Below are positions 16,718 to 24,269 of a stretch of 64,000 nt of DNA, one piece after another. Source of the stretch: Rhodopirellula sp. (lineage in GTDB: Bacteria > Planctomycetota > Planctomycetia > Pirellulales > Pirellulaceae); the NCBI GenBank assembly GCA_024644085.1, contig JAHELS010000001.1, positions 1 to 64,000 on the forward strand. The letters are read 5' to 3'. The notes beneath the pieces were generated by a model. It was not told the origin of the DNA. It did not search any database and saw nothing but the letters and a program-made list of their open reading frames with translations. How positions within the stretch are numbered: the first letter of the stretch is position 1; each line of letters opens with the position of its first letter. The translations under genes and the position numbers were made by a program.

Positions 16718-16905
16718 GGATTTGTATCAGGTTGGCGGTTGAATTGTGAATGAAAACGTGAAACGCAGCGACGCGCCGGAAACCGAACGGGGATGGTGCC
16801 CGATTCGGTGAGCCTACCAAAGTCACGAACGAAAACTCGGTTAGCAACGATCAAGCGGCTCTCGTGCCTGTGACTCTGGTCTTCAGGCCGTCGACGCGAC
16901 CGAAA

Positions 16906-18120
16906 TCATTTATCAATTTCCTTGATCGCGTCGACCAACGTCGGGTCAACGAGCCCAAGTCCCCCGCGGCCGCCGAGCAATCTCGATTGCACGTCATCCT
17001 TGACGTCCTCGGAGTTGGCTTCCCAAAAACGGGCGATCTTCGACTCATCGAGCGGCTTGTGGGAACGGAACAGTCGAAAGCCGACCCCGCGCGCCGGATC
17101 GCTCGTGAACCACCACGGGCTCTTGGGGAAGTTCGGGTCCTCTTCTTTCCAGTCTTCGTCATGAGAGGCGAGACGGGCGGCGCTGCGCAATTGTTCCGCA
17201 TCCATTTCCCAGCTGCCGCCGCGGACCACACAGGGATAGGAATTCTCGGGCCAAGTGACGGCATCGGTTGCGTTGATTGGCTTGCCTTTATCGAAATCCG
17301 TGTAACCCTCTTCGTTGTATTGATTGACGGTCCACTCGGCGACGCTGCCGTGCATGTCATGCAAACCAAGCGCATTGGGTTTCTTGCTACCGACCGGCGG
17401 AGCACCCTCGTCGGCGTTGTCGAAATACCAGGCGTAGTCGTCGATATCGCCGGGACTGTCACCCCAGCTGTAAGCGGTCGTGGTTCCGGCACGCGCGGCG
17501 TATTCCCATTCGGCTTCCGTGGGCAATCGAAACTGCTGGCCTGTGATACGACTGAGCCACTTGGTGAATTGCTGGGCGGAATACTGAGTCATCGTGACGG
17601 CCGGTTGATTCGGCTCTTCACCGTACTCATACGTAAAACTCGGATCGTACAATTCCGTTGGCGCGGTAATCGCGTCGACTTTGTTGTCATCGTTGATCGT
17701 TCGCTTTCCCTGGGCCTCGAACTCTTTGAAAATCGCATAGAGGTCCATGAATTCCTTGTACTGTGCCCACGTCACTTCCGTCTTGGCGACCCACATCGGG
17801 TCAACGACGACATCAATTTGCGGTCCTTCGTCATCCGCTCGATCTTCTTCATCCTCGGGGCTGCCCATTTTGAAAGTGCCGCCCGGAACCGGAATCATCT
17901 CGAACGAAACGTCCGTTCCCGGAATCGTCACGCTGTACGGCACCATGTAGCCGTTATCGACCTTGACCGAAGGACCTTCGGATGGTTCGTCTTTGACGAT
18001 CCCCACCTTGGATTGCGGAGAATCACCCAACACGTGCGATGCGGGCAGCAACAGAGCGATGGCAACAACTAGCGGCCGTGTAAGTTGGCAGGTCAAAGAC
18101 ATTTTTAGAACACGCTTCAT
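16906..18120 (-). CDS. Formylglycine-generating-enzyme/sulfatase-modifying-factor family protein, secreted
   Basis: MKRVLKMSLTCQLTRPLVVAIALLLPASHVLG signal; FEMIPVPGGTFKMGSPEDEEDRADDEGPQIDV; RLPTEAEWEYAARAGTTTAYSWGD; VRGGSWEM...GFRLFR. Confidence 0.92.
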   Translation of the reverse strand: MKRVLKMSLTCQLTRPLVVAIALLLPASHVLGDSPQSKVGIVKDEPSEGPSVKVDNGYMVPYSVTIPGTDVSFEMIPVPGGTFKMGSPEDEEDRADDEGPQIDVVVDPMWVAKTEVTWAQYKEFMDLYAIFKEFEAQGKRTINDDNKVDAITAPTELYDPSFTYEYGEEPNQPAVTMTQYSAQQFTKWLSRITGQQFRLPTEAEWEYAARAGTTTAYSWGDSPGDIDDYAWYFDNADEGAPPVGSKKPNALGLHDMHGSVAEWTVNQYNEEGYTDFDKGKPINATDAVTWPENSYPCVVRGGSWEMDAEQLRSAARLASHDEDWKEEDPNFPKSPWWFTSDPARGVGFRLFRSHKPLDESKIARFWEANSEDVKDDVQSRLLGGRGGLGLVDPTLVDAIKEIDK

Positions 18121-18389
18121 GGAAGTAGGTGGGAGAGGCAGAAACTCGAGAGCGGAAGTGACGGGATCATTATAGGTACCATTTCCCACCTGCCAAACGC
18201 AGCCGGCCCGAACACCAAGCTCGGTCTCGAAAGAACAACCGCTTCTCGCGCGGGCCGGGCTCTCTGGGGAAAAGACGCGATTCATGGAGGTGCGCGGGTT
18301 GCGACATCCGTTCAGACGTACAGGCGAATTCGCGTGCGGGACCGGGCCTAACGGGACCGCCGCCACCACCGGCGGGCCGCAGCGGTTGC

Positions 18390-19847
18390 TTATTGCACGT
18401 TCACTTCGTCGGGTCGAGATCCCAATTTGACGTAAAGAGAGACCGATTCGTCACCGCGGCGAACGTCCAATTTGACCCGGGTTCCGGCCATCGTATCCCC
18501 CACGATGCGCATCAAGTGTCCCATGTCGCGAATCTCCGTCCCGTCGACTGACAGAATCAGGTCGTCCGCTTGCAAACCGGCAATCGCTGCTGGAGACGCC
18601 TGATTGGTTAAACCGGTAACCATTGCGCCACGGACTCGGGGATCATCCCCAATCACGTCGTCGTCGGGAACTTCTATCAATGCGACACCCAACCATCCGC
18701 GTTCAACGCGGCCACTGTCGCGAAGCCGATGATAGACCTGTTTCGCCACATTGCTGGGGATCGAAAAACTGACTCCTTGATAGGTATCGCCGACAATCGC
18801 CGTGTTGATTCCGACCAATGTACCGCGAGCATCCACCAACGGCCCACCACTGTTCCCGGGGTTGACCGCGACGTCACTCTGCATGAAATCCTGGTACTTT
18901 GTGCTGGCGCGTATGTTTCGATGCTTGCCGCTGAGAATGCCAAACGTCACGGTTCGATCGAGACCAAACGGGCTGCCCACCGCCCACACGGGCGAACCAA
19001 CCTTGCATCGATCGCTGTCGCCCCATGTGATCGGCATCAATCGTTCCGCATCGACTTTCAAGACGGCAAGGTCGGTCAACGGATCGGTTCCCACCACGAC
19101 ACCGGCAACGCGGCGGCCATCGCTCAACGTCACCGTGATGTCCTCGCCGTCGGCAATCACATGGCGGTTGGTCAACACATATCCCGCCTCGTCGACGACA
19201 ACACCACTTCCCTGGTCCGTCGCGGGCAATACGCGTGTCGATAACAATCGCGCCATGCTTGCGTCTTCGATCATCGGTCGTCGCTGGACATCGATGTGAA
19301 CCACCGACGGACCGACCGCGGCGGTTACCATTTGGTATGCCTCGCTGAGCGCGTCGAGCGAAACATTGCGAAGTCCCTCGGTTCCCGTTTCGTACTCGGC
19401 TCGCAATTCACCGCGGTGCCATGAATACCGGATCTCTTCCAGGATCCTGGGTACAGCGAATCGTGCCCCCAACAACATGACCGACAACGTCGCCAGCAGG
19501 ATCAAACTCTGTGTGATCGGGTCGTGGCGGCGGTTGCGGCGCCGATGCTCCGAAGCTTTTTTCGCGGAGGTCTTCCGCGGTGCTGGCTCTCGCGGAGGCG
19601 ACGCGTCGACATCGGACGTCGGCAGATCGATTCGCTGCAGCAGCAATTGGCGCGAACGCAGTTCTTGATTCGACAAAGGGGATTCGGACCCCGAGCGGAG
19701 CGGTGAATCGGTAAGTTGCGCGGGCAAATTGGGGTCGGCTCGGCGGCCAGGATCATCGTGCATGATCGAAACAATCCCAAAATCGGAGACGAGCAGACCG
19801 ACCAATCCATCGGATGCGACCGCGAGAGAGGGGAGGCGTGGTTCCAT
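18390..19847 (-). CDS. HtrA/DegP-like trypsin-type serine protease with PDZ domain
   Basis: 485 aa; GSGVVVDEAGYVLTNRHVI; TDLAVLKV; MQSDVAVNPGNSGGPLVDARGTLVGINTAI; C-terminal PDZ. Confidence 0.94.
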   Translation of the reverse strand: MEPRLPSLAVASDGLVGLLVSDFGIVSIMHDDPGRRADPNLPAQLTDSPLRSGSESPLSNQELRSRQLLLQRIDLPTSDVDASPPREPAPRKTSAKKASEHRRRNRRHDPITQSLILLATLSVMLLGARFAVPRILEEIRYSWHRGELRAEYETGTEGLRNVSLDALSEAYQMVTAAVGPSVVHIDVQRRPMIEDASMARLLSTRVLPATDQGSGVVVDEAGYVLTNRHVIADGEDITVTLSDGRRVAGVVVGTDPLTDLAVLKVDAERLMPITWGDSDRCKVGSPVWAVGSPFGLDRTVTFGILSGKHRNIRASTKYQDFMQSDVAVNPGNSGGPLVDARGTLVGINTAIVGDTYQGVSFSIPSNVAKQVYHRLRDSGRVERGWLGVALIEVPDDDVIGDDPRVRGAMVTGLTNQASPAAIAGLQADDLILSVDGTEIRDMGHLMRIVGDTMAGTRVKLDVRRGDESVSLYVKLGSRPDEVNVQ

Positions 19848-20087
19848 TGTAGCGCAGAGTCAGCGGGCCGAGGCAAACTTTTCAGCCAAAAGCGGCGATG
19901 GCGGCCCCGCGAGGCGGCAAAAACGAATCATTGCGGCGGTTTTCAGGGGATGGCGCGGTTTAAACGCCTTGCCACCCCCAACTCGGCCTCCCCGCGACAC
20001 TCCGACAACGTGCCTCGCACACCGTATCGGAGTATGTTGGGCGTTTGCGAAAATGCCCTCCTCCAGCACGCGGCTTGAATTTGAACC

Positions 20088-22271
20088 ATGTCTGATTCCG
20101 TTCGCGAGACGATCTACGAAGCGATCGCCTCAATCCGTTTGATCGACCCCCACACGCACATCAACCCCCACGCGCCCGCTTCGAGCACGCTCGCCGACCT
20201 GCTTGGATACCACTATTACACCGAGCTGGCCCATTCGGCCGGCATGCCGAAATCTGAAATCGAAGAAGAAGGCTTGCAGCCGCGCGAATTAGTACGGCGG
20301 CTGGTTGAGAACCTTTCACCCATTGAGAACACGGCGCAGTACAGCTGGCTCGTCGAAATCTGTCGCATGTTCTTCGGGTTCGACGGCGAACGAATCGACA
20401 CCAGCAATTGGGAAGAGGTGTATGACGCGGCAGAGCGACAAATGGGCTCGGCAGAATGGCCGCAAATGGTCCTGGACCAAAGCAATGTGGAAGCCGTTTT
20501 TCTGACGAACGATTTCGACGACGAGTTGACAGGCTTCGATACCGAAACCTACATCCCCTGCCTGCGGACGGATGACCTTGTGTTTCATCTTCCCAAGCTG
20601 TCAACCCGTCAACGTTTGGCGGCGAGTTCGGGAATTGAACTCGATGGCTCGCTCGGCCGACTGCGCGACTCGCTCGACCAACGTTTCCGGCACTTTGTCT
20701 CTTCGGGCGCCCGGGCGTGCGCGATCTCGCTGCCTCCGACCTTCGAACCCGTGCCGGTCAGCGACGGGCGCGCCGCAACCGCGCTCGAGCAGGTCCTGCA
20801 GAAAGGTCCCGGCGCCGACCCCGCGCACCAGGCCGCTCTGTCGCGCCGCATCTTCTGGACGCTTGCCGAATTGTGCGATCATTACAACCTGCCCTTTGAT
20901 CTCATGATCGGCGTGAATCGTGGTGTCTACGGCGACGGAGTCTTCCAGGGCCAGGACCTTTATGACAGCCGTGTTTCACTGATTCAGTATCGCCAACTTT
21001 TTAATTCGTTCCCGCGTGTCAAGTTTCCCATTTCAGTGCTCGCCAGCGTCACCAACCAGGAACTCGTTAGCTACGCGTGGATCTTTCCAAATGTGATCAC
21101 CAACGGTCACTGGTGGTACAGCAACACGCCGTCGTTTATCTCGCGCGACGCGGCCGCGCGACTCGAAGCGGTACCGCAAACCAAGCAGATCGGTTACTAC
21201 AGCGACGCCTACAAACTCGAATTCGTTTGGCCCAAATTTGACATGTACCGCCGTCTTCTTGCAGGCATCTTGTCGGACCAATTTGTACTTCAGCGCGGAT
21301 GGAGCGAGGAACGCGCGATTGAATTGGGTCGACAGGTGCTTCGTGATAACGTCGACGAGATCTTTCCCCGCGCCGCGATGCCCGAAACCGACGAAGCGTT
21401 GGACGCAGATTCGCAAGCCACCCGGGTCGATCCCCTCGCCGGTACCTCGGCCGCTCTGGCCGCCGGCGCAATCGGAATGGTCGAAATCAACGAAGCCGGC
21501 GATGCCGAGTCAGACGACGACGCAGACGATCCCGGCTCGAGTTCGCAAGATCAATCGGACGACGATCAAGGCTTTTCGACTCTCGTCATGGAAACCGATG
21601 CGCTGACCGTGAACGAAGAGCCATCGGATCTGGAAACCGTTCGAATTGATGACGGCGACGACGCGTCAAGATCCGACGAGCATGGGGTGTTGCCCGATCT
21701 GCCGACGAAACTCGATCTGGATGACACCATACGAATCGATGACTCGGCCGATGCACAGTCGGAACAGGCGGATGCGGAATTCGAATTGGACCCGCTTCCG
21801 AGCGACGATGAACTCGAGGACGCAGGTGTCGATGACGTCGAGTTGCACGAGTTTTCACCCGAAAGCCGCGGGCCGGATGCAGAGGGGATCGAAGCCGAGG
21901 CCGACGATGACGCTCTTGATGTCGGCGACATTTTCGCCGACGAGGGATCAGAGGCGACTTCCGATTCGGAATCCGAAATCCGTATGCTCAGGGGCGAAGA
22001 CTCGTTTCAACCGGATGAAGACTCGCTGCAGTTGCGTCCCGATCCGGTCACCGGCGAATTGACGTTCCCAGTGGCCCAGTCGGACCAACCCTCTGCCGAC
22101 GGCGAAGACGAGTCGGATGACATCCACGCGACGATCGACGCCGACGAAATTGCCGCGCTGGGAGAGACAATCGAGTTAGCGGAAATCGACCTCGACGAAA
22201 TGGATTCCGACGAAGACCAGATCGAATCGCTCGACGAACAGGACAGCAGCGACGATTTGCTCCGGCCCTGA
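20088..22271 (+). CDS. Uronate-isomerase-like amidohydrolase-fold protein with about 295-aa acidic low-complexity C-terminal extension
   Basis: N-terminus IRLIDPHTHINPHAP and conserved NGHWWYSNTPSFISRDAAARLEAVPQTKQIGYYSDAYKLEFVWPKFDMYRR; after about residue 430 the protein is almost entirely D/E/S-rich. Confidence 0.85.
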   Translation: MSDSVRETIYEAIASIRLIDPHTHINPHAPASSTLADLLGYHYYTELAHSAGMPKSEIEEEGLQPRELVRRLVENLSPIENTAQYSWLVEICRMFFGFDGERIDTSNWEEVYDAAERQMGSAEWPQMVLDQSNVEAVFLTNDFDDELTGFDTETYIPCLRTDDLVFHLPKLSTRQRLAASSGIELDGSLGRLRDSLDQRFRHFVSSGARACAISLPPTFEPVPVSDGRAATALEQVLQKGPGADPAHQAALSRRIFWTLAELCDHYNLPFDLMIGVNRGVYGDGVFQGQDLYDSRVSLIQYRQLFNSFPRVKFPISVLASVTNQELVSYAWIFPNVITNGHWWYSNTPSFISRDAAARLEAVPQTKQIGYYSDAYKLEFVWPKFDMYRRLLAGILSDQFVLQRGWSEERAIELGRQVLRDNVDEIFPRAAMPETDEALDADSQATRVDPLAGTSAALAAGAIGMVEINEAGDAESDDDADDPGSSSQDQSDDDQGFSTLVMETDALTVNEEPSDLETVRIDDGDDASRSDEHGVLPDLPTKLDLDDTIRIDDSADAQSEQADAEFELDPLPSDDELEDAGVDDVELHEFSPESRGPDAEGIEAEADDDALDVGDIFADEGSEATSDSESEIRMLRGEDSFQPDEDSLQLRPDPVTGELTFPVAQSDQPSADGEDESDDIHATIDADEIAALGETIELAEIDLDEMDSDEDQIESLDEQDSSDDLLRP

Positions 22272-22390: not shown

Positions 22391-23974
22391 TCATTGAGAG
22401 TGCGACGATTTCTCGGAGGCAATCCGGTTGATGGCGTTGAGCATGGCTAGAATCGTGCTCTCGACACTGTCAGTGCTGACACCGACGCCACGATAGCTTC
22501 GTCCTTTGTATTCAACTTCGAGATTGACTTCGCCGATCGCGTCGCGGCCGAGCGTGGCACTGCGCACACGGAAATCCTTGCACACGACCTCGATACCGGT
22601 AATCTTCTCGACAGCCCAGAAGGCCGCGTCGATCGGACCGTCGCCCTGTTCGACACGCTCGGTTCGCTGTTCGTCACCATGCTTGAGCGTCAATTCGACA
22701 AGGGGCGCGCGTGATTTTCCACTGGTCACCACGTAATCAACCAATGACCACTCCTCTTCGACACTGCCGCTGATCTGCTGCTGGACCAAGGCGACAATAT
22801 CCCCGTCATAGATTTCTTTTTTCTTGTCGGCCAGCAACTTGAACTGATCGAAGACAACCTGCAATTGTTCGCCACTGAGGGTGAACCCAAGCGTCTTGGC
22901 GCGATCAGCAAGCGCCGCGCGACCGCTGTGCTTGCCCAACACCAAATCAGTCTTTGAGAAACCAACTTCCTCGGGCGACATGATTTCGTAAGTGCTGCGT
23001 TCCTTGAGCATGCCGTCCTGATGGATTCCCGACTCGTGAGCGAACGCATTTCGACCGACGATCGCCTTGTTGCGCTGAACCTGGATCCCGGTGGTTTTGC
23101 TGACCAACCGGCTGGCCGGAACGAGCCTGGTCGAATCAATGCGCGTGTTGCAGCTGTAAACGTCGGATCGGGTTTTCAACGCCATCACGACTTCTTCGAG
23201 CGCGGCGTTGCCCGCGCGTTCGCCGATCCCGTTAATGGTGCATTCGATCTGGCCAGCCCCGGCGGCCACCGCCGCCAGGCTGTTGGCCACAGCCATGCCA
23301 AGATCGTCATGGCAATGAGTACTGACCACTGCCTTGTCAATGTTGGGCACGGAATTCATCAACATGGTGAAACGGTCGTAGATTTCGTTGGGAGTGGTGT
23401 AACCGACCGTGTCGGGAATGTTCACCGTCGTTGCACCGGCATCGATGGCCGCTTCTACGACGCGACAAAGAAAGTCGTACTCGGTACGACAGGCGTCCTC
23501 GGGCGAAAACTCTACGTCGTCACAGTAACCCACGGCGCGTTTGACTCCAGCCACCGCACGGTCGACGATCTCATCGGTGCTCATTCTCAGTTTGAACTCG
23601 CGGTGAATGGCACTGGTCGCGAGGAATACGTGAATTCGGGAACTCGGCGCGTGCTTGACAGCCTCCCATGCTGCGTCGATGTCCTTGTCATTACAGCGGG
23701 CCAATCCGCAAATGGTCGATCCACGGACACTTTGGGCGATTTGCTTGACCGACTCGAAGTCTCCCGGCGAGGCAATCGGAAACCCCGCCTCGATGATGTC
23801 GACACCCATCTCCGCAAGCAATTGTGCCACCTCGAGCTTCTCTGCCAGATTCATGCTCGCGCCGGGCGACTGTTCCCCGTCTCGCAACGTCGTGTCAAAA
23901 ATCCGAATCATGCGTGGCTCTTGACGATTCGATGAATCGGATCTGGCCTCGCTGGATGTGGTGGGAGACGACAT
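22391..23974 (-). CDS. leuA: 2-isopropylmalate synthase
   Basis: [73 protein letters not shown]-terminal regulatory domain. ATG at 23974; the track's 24016 start would be TTG. Confidence 0.95.
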
Positions 23975-24014
23975 CTTGGTACCTTTGAACCGTGCGGTTG
24001 CCGAATAGTGTTCC

Positions 24015-24047
24015 AATAAAAAACCCGAATCGCGAGGCGACTCGGGT
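24015..24047 (-). terminator. Intrinsic terminator in the leuA leader (putative attenuator)
   Basis: Minus strand: ACCCGA-GTCGCCTCGCGAT-TCGGGT followed by TTTTTATT; outer 6-bp stem plus inner TCGC/GCGA stem; ends about 40 nt upstream of the leuA ATG. Confidence 0.85.
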
Positions 24048-24094
24048 CAAATGTCTTTTTTCGTTTTGGACCAATCTGGCCCGACAAACCCTCA

Positions 24095-24154
24095 TCACCC
24101 GCCAGTTTGGCGTCGCAGTAGCAAGAGCGAAAGGAGTAGGGGCTGAATTGTCAT
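24095..24154 (-). CDS. Leucine-rich leader peptide (MTIQPLLLSLLLLRRQTGG), putative leuL-like leader
   Basis: ATG ACA ATT CAG CCC CTA CTC CTT TCG CTC TTG CTA CTG CGA CGC CAA ACT GGC GGG TGA; 7 of 19 codons are Leu; located immediately upstream of the terminator and leuA. Confidence 0.8.
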   Translation of the reverse strand: MTIQPLLLSLLLLRRQTGG

Positions 24155-24269
24155 GATCGTATGTTAGGCAGGAGCGATCAGCCACGTCAACGGTTCGCGC
24201 GGCCGAGTGAGAAAAATTGCGTTTCATTTCGGTGGATGCCGCGTTGGGACATCGCATCGCGTCGGTGGA

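Follow-up and report, generated by a model that had tools for sequence, protein, structure and literature searches.

Transcription attenuation by a translated leader peptide is a known kind of regulator (PMC2965389; PMC1262725), which as of 2010 had been recorded only in Proteobacteria and Actinobacteria, Firmicutes then being added (PMC2965389). Four described systems share features with the locus reported here. The leu operon attenuator of Salmonella and E. coli (leuL; Rfam Leu_leader) has in common with it a Leu-rich leader ORF, an alternative antiterminator and terminator and an enrichment of the rare CUA codon; the S. typhimurium attenuator contains three CUA codons, and their replacement by CUG lowered its sensitivity (Carter et al. 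1986, as reported in PMC1183508). The actinobacterial leuA leaders (LEU element; leuL1 of Streptomyces, MRFGLLLLSCRGEGL) likewise place a short Leu leader before leuA. The leuL1 of S. lividans is transcribed leaderless and is without a typical Rho-independent terminator (PMC8079986), while for the LEU element a pseudoknot was described, with Leu codons pairing to the Shine-Dalgarno sequence of leuA, classical attenuation being judged unlikely there (PMC1262725). The trpL of Sinorhizobium meliloti has a leaderless leader peptide, as is predicted for the present locus, the attenuated RNA beginning at its ATG, and the peptide, peTrpL, has been proposed to act in trans (PMC7298713). The LeuL of Epsilonproteobacteria (Campylobacter jejuni leuABCD) resembles it in that several of the leader codons are rare Leu codons and that, as predicted here, termination yields a short RNA (PMC3847290).

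The window (the whole stretch of DNA that was analysed, 64,000 nucleotides from a Rhodopirellula sp.) carries upstream of leuA a set of elements that very probably constitutes a Leu-sensing, ribosome-mediated transcription attenuator of this gene (Table 1). Compared to leuL of Salmonella and E. coli, this device belongs to a different phylum, has no Rfam match, is probably leaderless, has an antiterminator strand (segment 2) that overlaps the stop codon of the leader, and precedes leuA, leuC being located on another contig of the same genome. In contrast to the actinobacterial LEU element, it has a strong terminator together with a co-varying antiterminator, and the absence of a typical terminator does not apply to it. 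It differs from the S. meliloti trpL in the gene, the phylum and the amino acid (Trp there, Leu here), and from the C. jejuni LeuL in gene arrangement and phylum, the short ORFs in that study having been sought with a ribosome binding site.

Table 1. Elements of the putative leuA attenuator in the window, listed in the direction of transcription.
Feature	Position	Strand	Basis and remarks
Promoter -35 hexamer TTGACG	24185..24190	minus	Promoter scan; conserved as TTGAC in relatives
Promoter -10 hexamer TAACAT	24161..24166	minus	18-nt spacer; ends 6 nt before the leader ATG
Leader ORF MTIQPLLLSLLLLRRQTGG (then stop)	24095..24154	minus	Sequence read directly and conservation in relatives; probably leaderless
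Regulatory codons CTA CTC CTT TCG CTC TTG CTA CTG (7 Leu)	24116..24139	minus	Direct reading; CUA enrichment in leaders
Antiterminator 5' strand (segment 2) GGGUGAUGAGGGUUUGUC	24083..24100	minus	Overlaps last leader codon and stop codon; co-variation and fold
Hairpin GGGCCAGAUUGGUCC enclosed by the antiterminator	24068..24082	minus	Fold; similar hairpins in the same place in relatives
Antiterminator 3' strand (segment 3) GACAUUUGACCCGAGUCGCCU	24035..24055	minus	Contains the whole terminator 5' arm; co-variation and fold
Intrinsic terminator hairpin	24022..24048, U-tract on to ~24016	minus	Fold and conservation in relatives
AAAGG, likely Shine-Dalgarno of leuA	23982..23986	minus	Sequence reading; inference
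leuA, 2-isopropylmalate synthase, regulated gene	22391..23974	minus	TIGR00973, 713.9 bits (cut-off 598.7)

Direct reading of the minus strand gives a leader of 19 codons, 7 of which are Leu, with its ATG at 24154, a TGA stop ending at 24095, and a distance of exactly 180 nt from its ATG to that of leuA (23974), just as the first-pass annotation of this DNA had it. CUA accounts for 25.2% of the 749 Leu codons of the leaders versus 1.4% in the leuA bodies of these loci (2269 Leu codons); among the leaders of a Gemmataceae-like set (see below) the commonest Leu codon is CUU, not CUA. Beyond the Leu run the sequence of the leader peptide is not conserved, and its C-terminus tracks the pairing needs of the RNA, which argues against the ORF encoding a functional small hydrophobic peptide that is translated from the attenuated short transcript and acts in trans, besides or instead of attenuation. 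Termination would indeed yield a leaderless short mRNA, as it does at the S. meliloti trpL (PMC7298713); nevertheless, we consider such a peptide quite improbable.

The terminator hairpin consists of GACCCGAGTCGC-CTC-GCGATTCGGGTT followed by TTTTATT, with 12 pairs (from 24048 through the U-tract to about 24016 it reads GACCCGAGTCGC-CTC-GCGATTCGGGTTTTTTATT). It folds with -19.7 kcal/mol (z -6.6 relative to shuffles) and, at 24048-24022, heads the list of terminator-like sites in the 4 kb between positions 22000 and 26000. The hairpin and the U-tract had been recognised correctly on first reading, only their distance to leuA is to be revised, since the 3' end of the terminator lies 48 nt, rather than about 40 nt, from the leuA ATG. 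Two further observations concern leuA and its surroundings. A 727-aa ORF at 20088-22271 of the window (plus strand), which converges on leuA, gave no match in Pfam; it looks like a uronate isomerase at its N-terminus, and its last ~300 residues are very acidic and repetitive. In one of the genomes searched (G202), contig C241 carries two leuA copies with identical scores, at 16863-18389 (minus) and 18848-20374 (plus), which are divergent and 458 nt apart, while a third copy is on contig C252, an arrangement that is either an inverted duplication or an assembly artefact.

Segment 2 consists of the final codon of the leader, its stop codon and the adjoining GAGGGUUUGU, and it pairs with the terminator 5' arm over its full length. 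In the window the pairing is GGUGAU/GA/GGGUU(UGUC) with (GACA)/GACCC/GA/GUCGCC, and the duplex 24100-24083:24055-24035 has a predicted energy of -17.3 kcal/mol. The first-pass annotation had suggested that UCGGG (24084-24080), pairing with the CCCGA of the terminator arm, could act as antiterminator; this candidate was rejected, as its duplex reaches just -12.3 kcal/mol and is not the conserved pairing. The blocks conserved in the clade of the window are UGAUGAGGGUUUG, from the stop codon on, and CCCGAGUCGCC, the 5' arm of the terminator. Such highly conserved RNA stretches might be expected of a leader RNA that binds a ligand or a protein (a riboswitch, a T-box or a LEU-element-like structure), the Leu ORF being incidental. 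They coincide, however, with the antiterminator and terminator strands and change together between lineages, and the persistent feature of the leaders is the Leu codons with their CUA bias. Moreover, Rfam, whose models include the T-box and the leader families with the Leu leader, gave no match at the gathering score, and nothing relevant turned up when the threshold was relaxed to E 10. The riboswitch explanation was accordingly rejected, and a binding element of any of these kinds is in our estimate very improbable.

The occurrence of the device was studied in 218 leuA upstream regions, taken from 80 named contigs and from whole genomes of the family, the order and the phylum to which the window belongs, with a strict detector that requires a short ORF with a stretch of 10 residues of which 5 or more are Leu, then a strong hairpin with a T-run within 170 nt. 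The detector found 120 of the 218 regions, none of 1090 shuffles, none of the 218 reverse complements and 2 of 2316 control windows (other DNA of the same loci). The nearest relatives (L083-L111, n=29) pass in 27 cases, so that the comparison proposed with the first-pass annotation bears out the conservation of the Leu run and the terminator. L101 fails the strict detector and passes a relaxed scan. In L092, which is of the same genus (genome G142), a palindromic insert, GTAGGCCGGAACAAGCG...CGCTTGTTCCGGCCTAC, has displaced the leader, and the stem of the terminator shows decayed pairing, which we read as a natural loss of the attenuator. leuA leaders occur across Pirellulales and also in Thalassoglobus (L031), on a Phycisphaerales contig (L049) and in others, and the leuA of a Stieleria (L004) has the device too; the leader was not seen in several lineages of Pirellulaceae (L179, L184, L191, L195, L198 and others). 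Inspection of ATG-started short ORFs at ilvB, trpE, hisG and leuC of the window's genome revealed no similar leader. Outside the phylum, a Leu-rich leader and a terminator of similar layout precede leuA in records of Lysobacterales, Dyella and another gammaproteobacterium (L069, L072, L074 and L081).

These counts bear on another reading of the locus, namely that the hairpin simply terminates the flagellar-export operon upstream and that the Leu-rich ORF is a chance frame. flhB lies on the same strand upstream of the leader (stop at ~24270), some 220 nt before the hairpin, as this reading would have it. The arrangement recurs, however, before leuA in many genera and is found in just 2 of the 2316 stretches of control DNA, there is a promoter between flhB and the hairpin, and the stop region and the terminator arm co-vary in their pairing (see below). 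We regard a flagellar terminator with a chance frame as scarcely credible.

With the Gemmataceae LeuA of L034 as the query, a class-wide search added 30 further loci, the family assignment of this Gemmataceae-like set resting on identity to L034. When L034 is counted with these 30 loci, 26 have a Leu leader and, downstream of it, a hairpin with a T-rich tail. In these the 5' arm of the hairpin pairs with the last part of the leader ORF (z -5.6; spacer control +1.9). In L226-L237 (family f69) the T-tracts of the hairpins that follow the Leu leaders are imperfect, for instance TTTCGTTT or TCGCGTTT, in contrast to the strong U-tracts of Pirellulales, and since such tracts are frequent in the Gemmataceae-like set, it is less certain how strongly these hairpins terminate transcription. 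The candidate device as a whole reaches across Pirellulales into Gemmataceae, with different sequences.

Co-variation of the alternative pairings was assessed in 99 non-redundant relatives by comparing the duplex energies of segments of the same sequence with those of segments swapped between sequences. The stop region and the terminator 5' arm (2:3) gave -18.0 kcal/mol when matched versus -14.8 kcal/mol when swapped (z -10.8; the swap ignores phylogeny, thus the z values are not exact probabilities, the main negative controls being near zero). When all segments were compared in the same 99 sequences, z was -8.0 for leader and stop region (1:2), -10.5 for 2:3 and -23 for the 5' and 3' arms of the terminator (3:4), versus +0.7 for leader and 3' arm (1:4), +1.1 for stop region and 3' arm (2:4) and +1.6 for spacer and 5' arm. 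Two further pairs, leader with 5' arm (z -3.8) and spacer with stop region (z -4.8), deviated without explanation. Among 33 representatives of less than 55% identity the values for 1:2, 2:3 and 3:4 were -5.5, -8.0 and -14.8, with controls around zero. An antiterminator that uses the terminator 5' arm, and is mutually exclusive with the terminator, is thus supported by z values of -8.0 to -10.8 for 2:3. Within the window's own clade (25 sequences) no 2:3 co-variation was detected (z +0.6) because segments 2 and 3 are nearly invariant there; the co-variation that supports the proposed antiterminator comes from between lineages. A per-column pair table is biased, its register having been picked to maximise pairing, therefore we relied on the duplex permutation test instead.

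A variant leader, LLLDLGLL...SSSRFVV, was noticed in L103-L107 and L109 and, less clearly, in L111, L159 and L161-L164. By eye, GAUUCGU inside its ORF pairs with ACGAAUY before the GCCCGAGCC terminator, and the antiterminator of this variant appears to be rebuilt within the coding sequence.

In predicted folds, the position of the ribosome has the expected effect on these structures. When the window transcript was folded as it stands before the 3' arm of the terminator is made, the antiterminator formed with the ribosome on the Leu codons and was lost with the ribosome at the stop codon; in this geometry a ribosome at the regulatory codons leaves the antiterminator strand free and one at the stop codon covers it. 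Over the 99 relatives, masked folds gave a mean antiterminator probability of 0.53 for the stalled ribosome versus 0.14 for the ribosome at the stop, the former exceeding the latter in 77 of the 99 and the reverse being the case in 5; the window agrees with the majority. Whatever the state of the ribosome, the terminator is the favoured structure at equilibrium, hence the switch must be kinetic, like that of classical attenuators. Classical attenuators also terminate transcription when the leader is untranslated. The protector pairing 1:2, for all its z of -8.0 over the 99 sequences, has a predicted probability of 0.001 in the window, and the naked window transcript also favours the antiterminator, therefore termination without translation of the leader is unsupported here.

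TTGACG-18-TAACAT (24190-24161) is the only promoter-like site between positions 22000 and 26000 and stands directly before the leader, so that transcription is predicted to start at A 24154 or immediately beside it. Among the 99 relatives, the leader ATG follows a promoter of the TTGAC/TANNNT type at a distance of 6-7 nt in 44, versus 0.8% of shuffles (counted was the best promoter-like pair scoring at least 10, with the -10 hexamer ending 6-7 nt before the ATG). Because of this spacing we propose that transcription probably starts at or beside the leader AUG, and that the leader is without a 5' UTR. The same attenuator might instead have a conventional 5' UTR, with transcription starting well upstream of 24154, for instance by read-through from flhB, and internal initiation of the leader. 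Some read-through is possible, given that flhB is upstream on the same strand, and many relatives outside Pirellulaceae have no evident promoter at 6-7 nt. The 44 hexamer pairs at that distance speak against this, as do the SD-like 4-mers, which precede the leader start in just 10 of the 99 relatives, and we hold a conventional 5' UTR to be rather unlikely.

Attenuation of leuA by a Leu leader and a translating ribosome, as first suggested for this DNA, is strongly supported by the comparative evidence, with the antiterminator strand corrected and a leaderless start proposed. The parts, their conservation and the between-lineage co-variation of their alternative pairings are computational observations; from them we infer the transcription start, the translation of the leader, the stalling and the response to Leu. 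Transcription would start at or beside the AUG of the 19-codon leader, whose translation would probably need no 5' UTR. Under a shortage of Leu-tRNA, the ribosome would stall on the Leu codons and leave segment 2 (24100-24083) free to pair with segment 3 (24055-24035); this pairing would take up the 5' arm of the terminator, no terminator would form and leuA would be transcribed. When Leu is plentiful, the ribosome would reach the stop codon and cover segment 2, allowing the terminator (24048-24022) to form and to end transcription just before leuA.

The regulator is of a known type, in a phylum for which no description of such attenuation was found in the open-access papers searched; in PMC4833913 planctomycete short leader genes figure just in a genome-wide distance statistic, and leuA is absent from its main text. 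The antiterminator strand placed on the stop codon of the leader would be a distinct design, common to many of these lineages. Attenuation works only when the ribosome closely trails RNA polymerase. For Gemmataceae a segregation of transcription and translation has been claimed, and for Gemmata their coupling has been disputed (2014, cited in PMC5394234 and PMC5287468). Most of the genomes retrieved with the Gemmataceae LeuA as query have a Leu leader, a terminator-like hairpin and a co-varying antiterminator (test set of 26 loci). The wider interest of these leaders lies in this disputed point: as attenuation needs coupled transcription and translation, the Gemmataceae-like leaders open the question of coupling to a direct genetic test.
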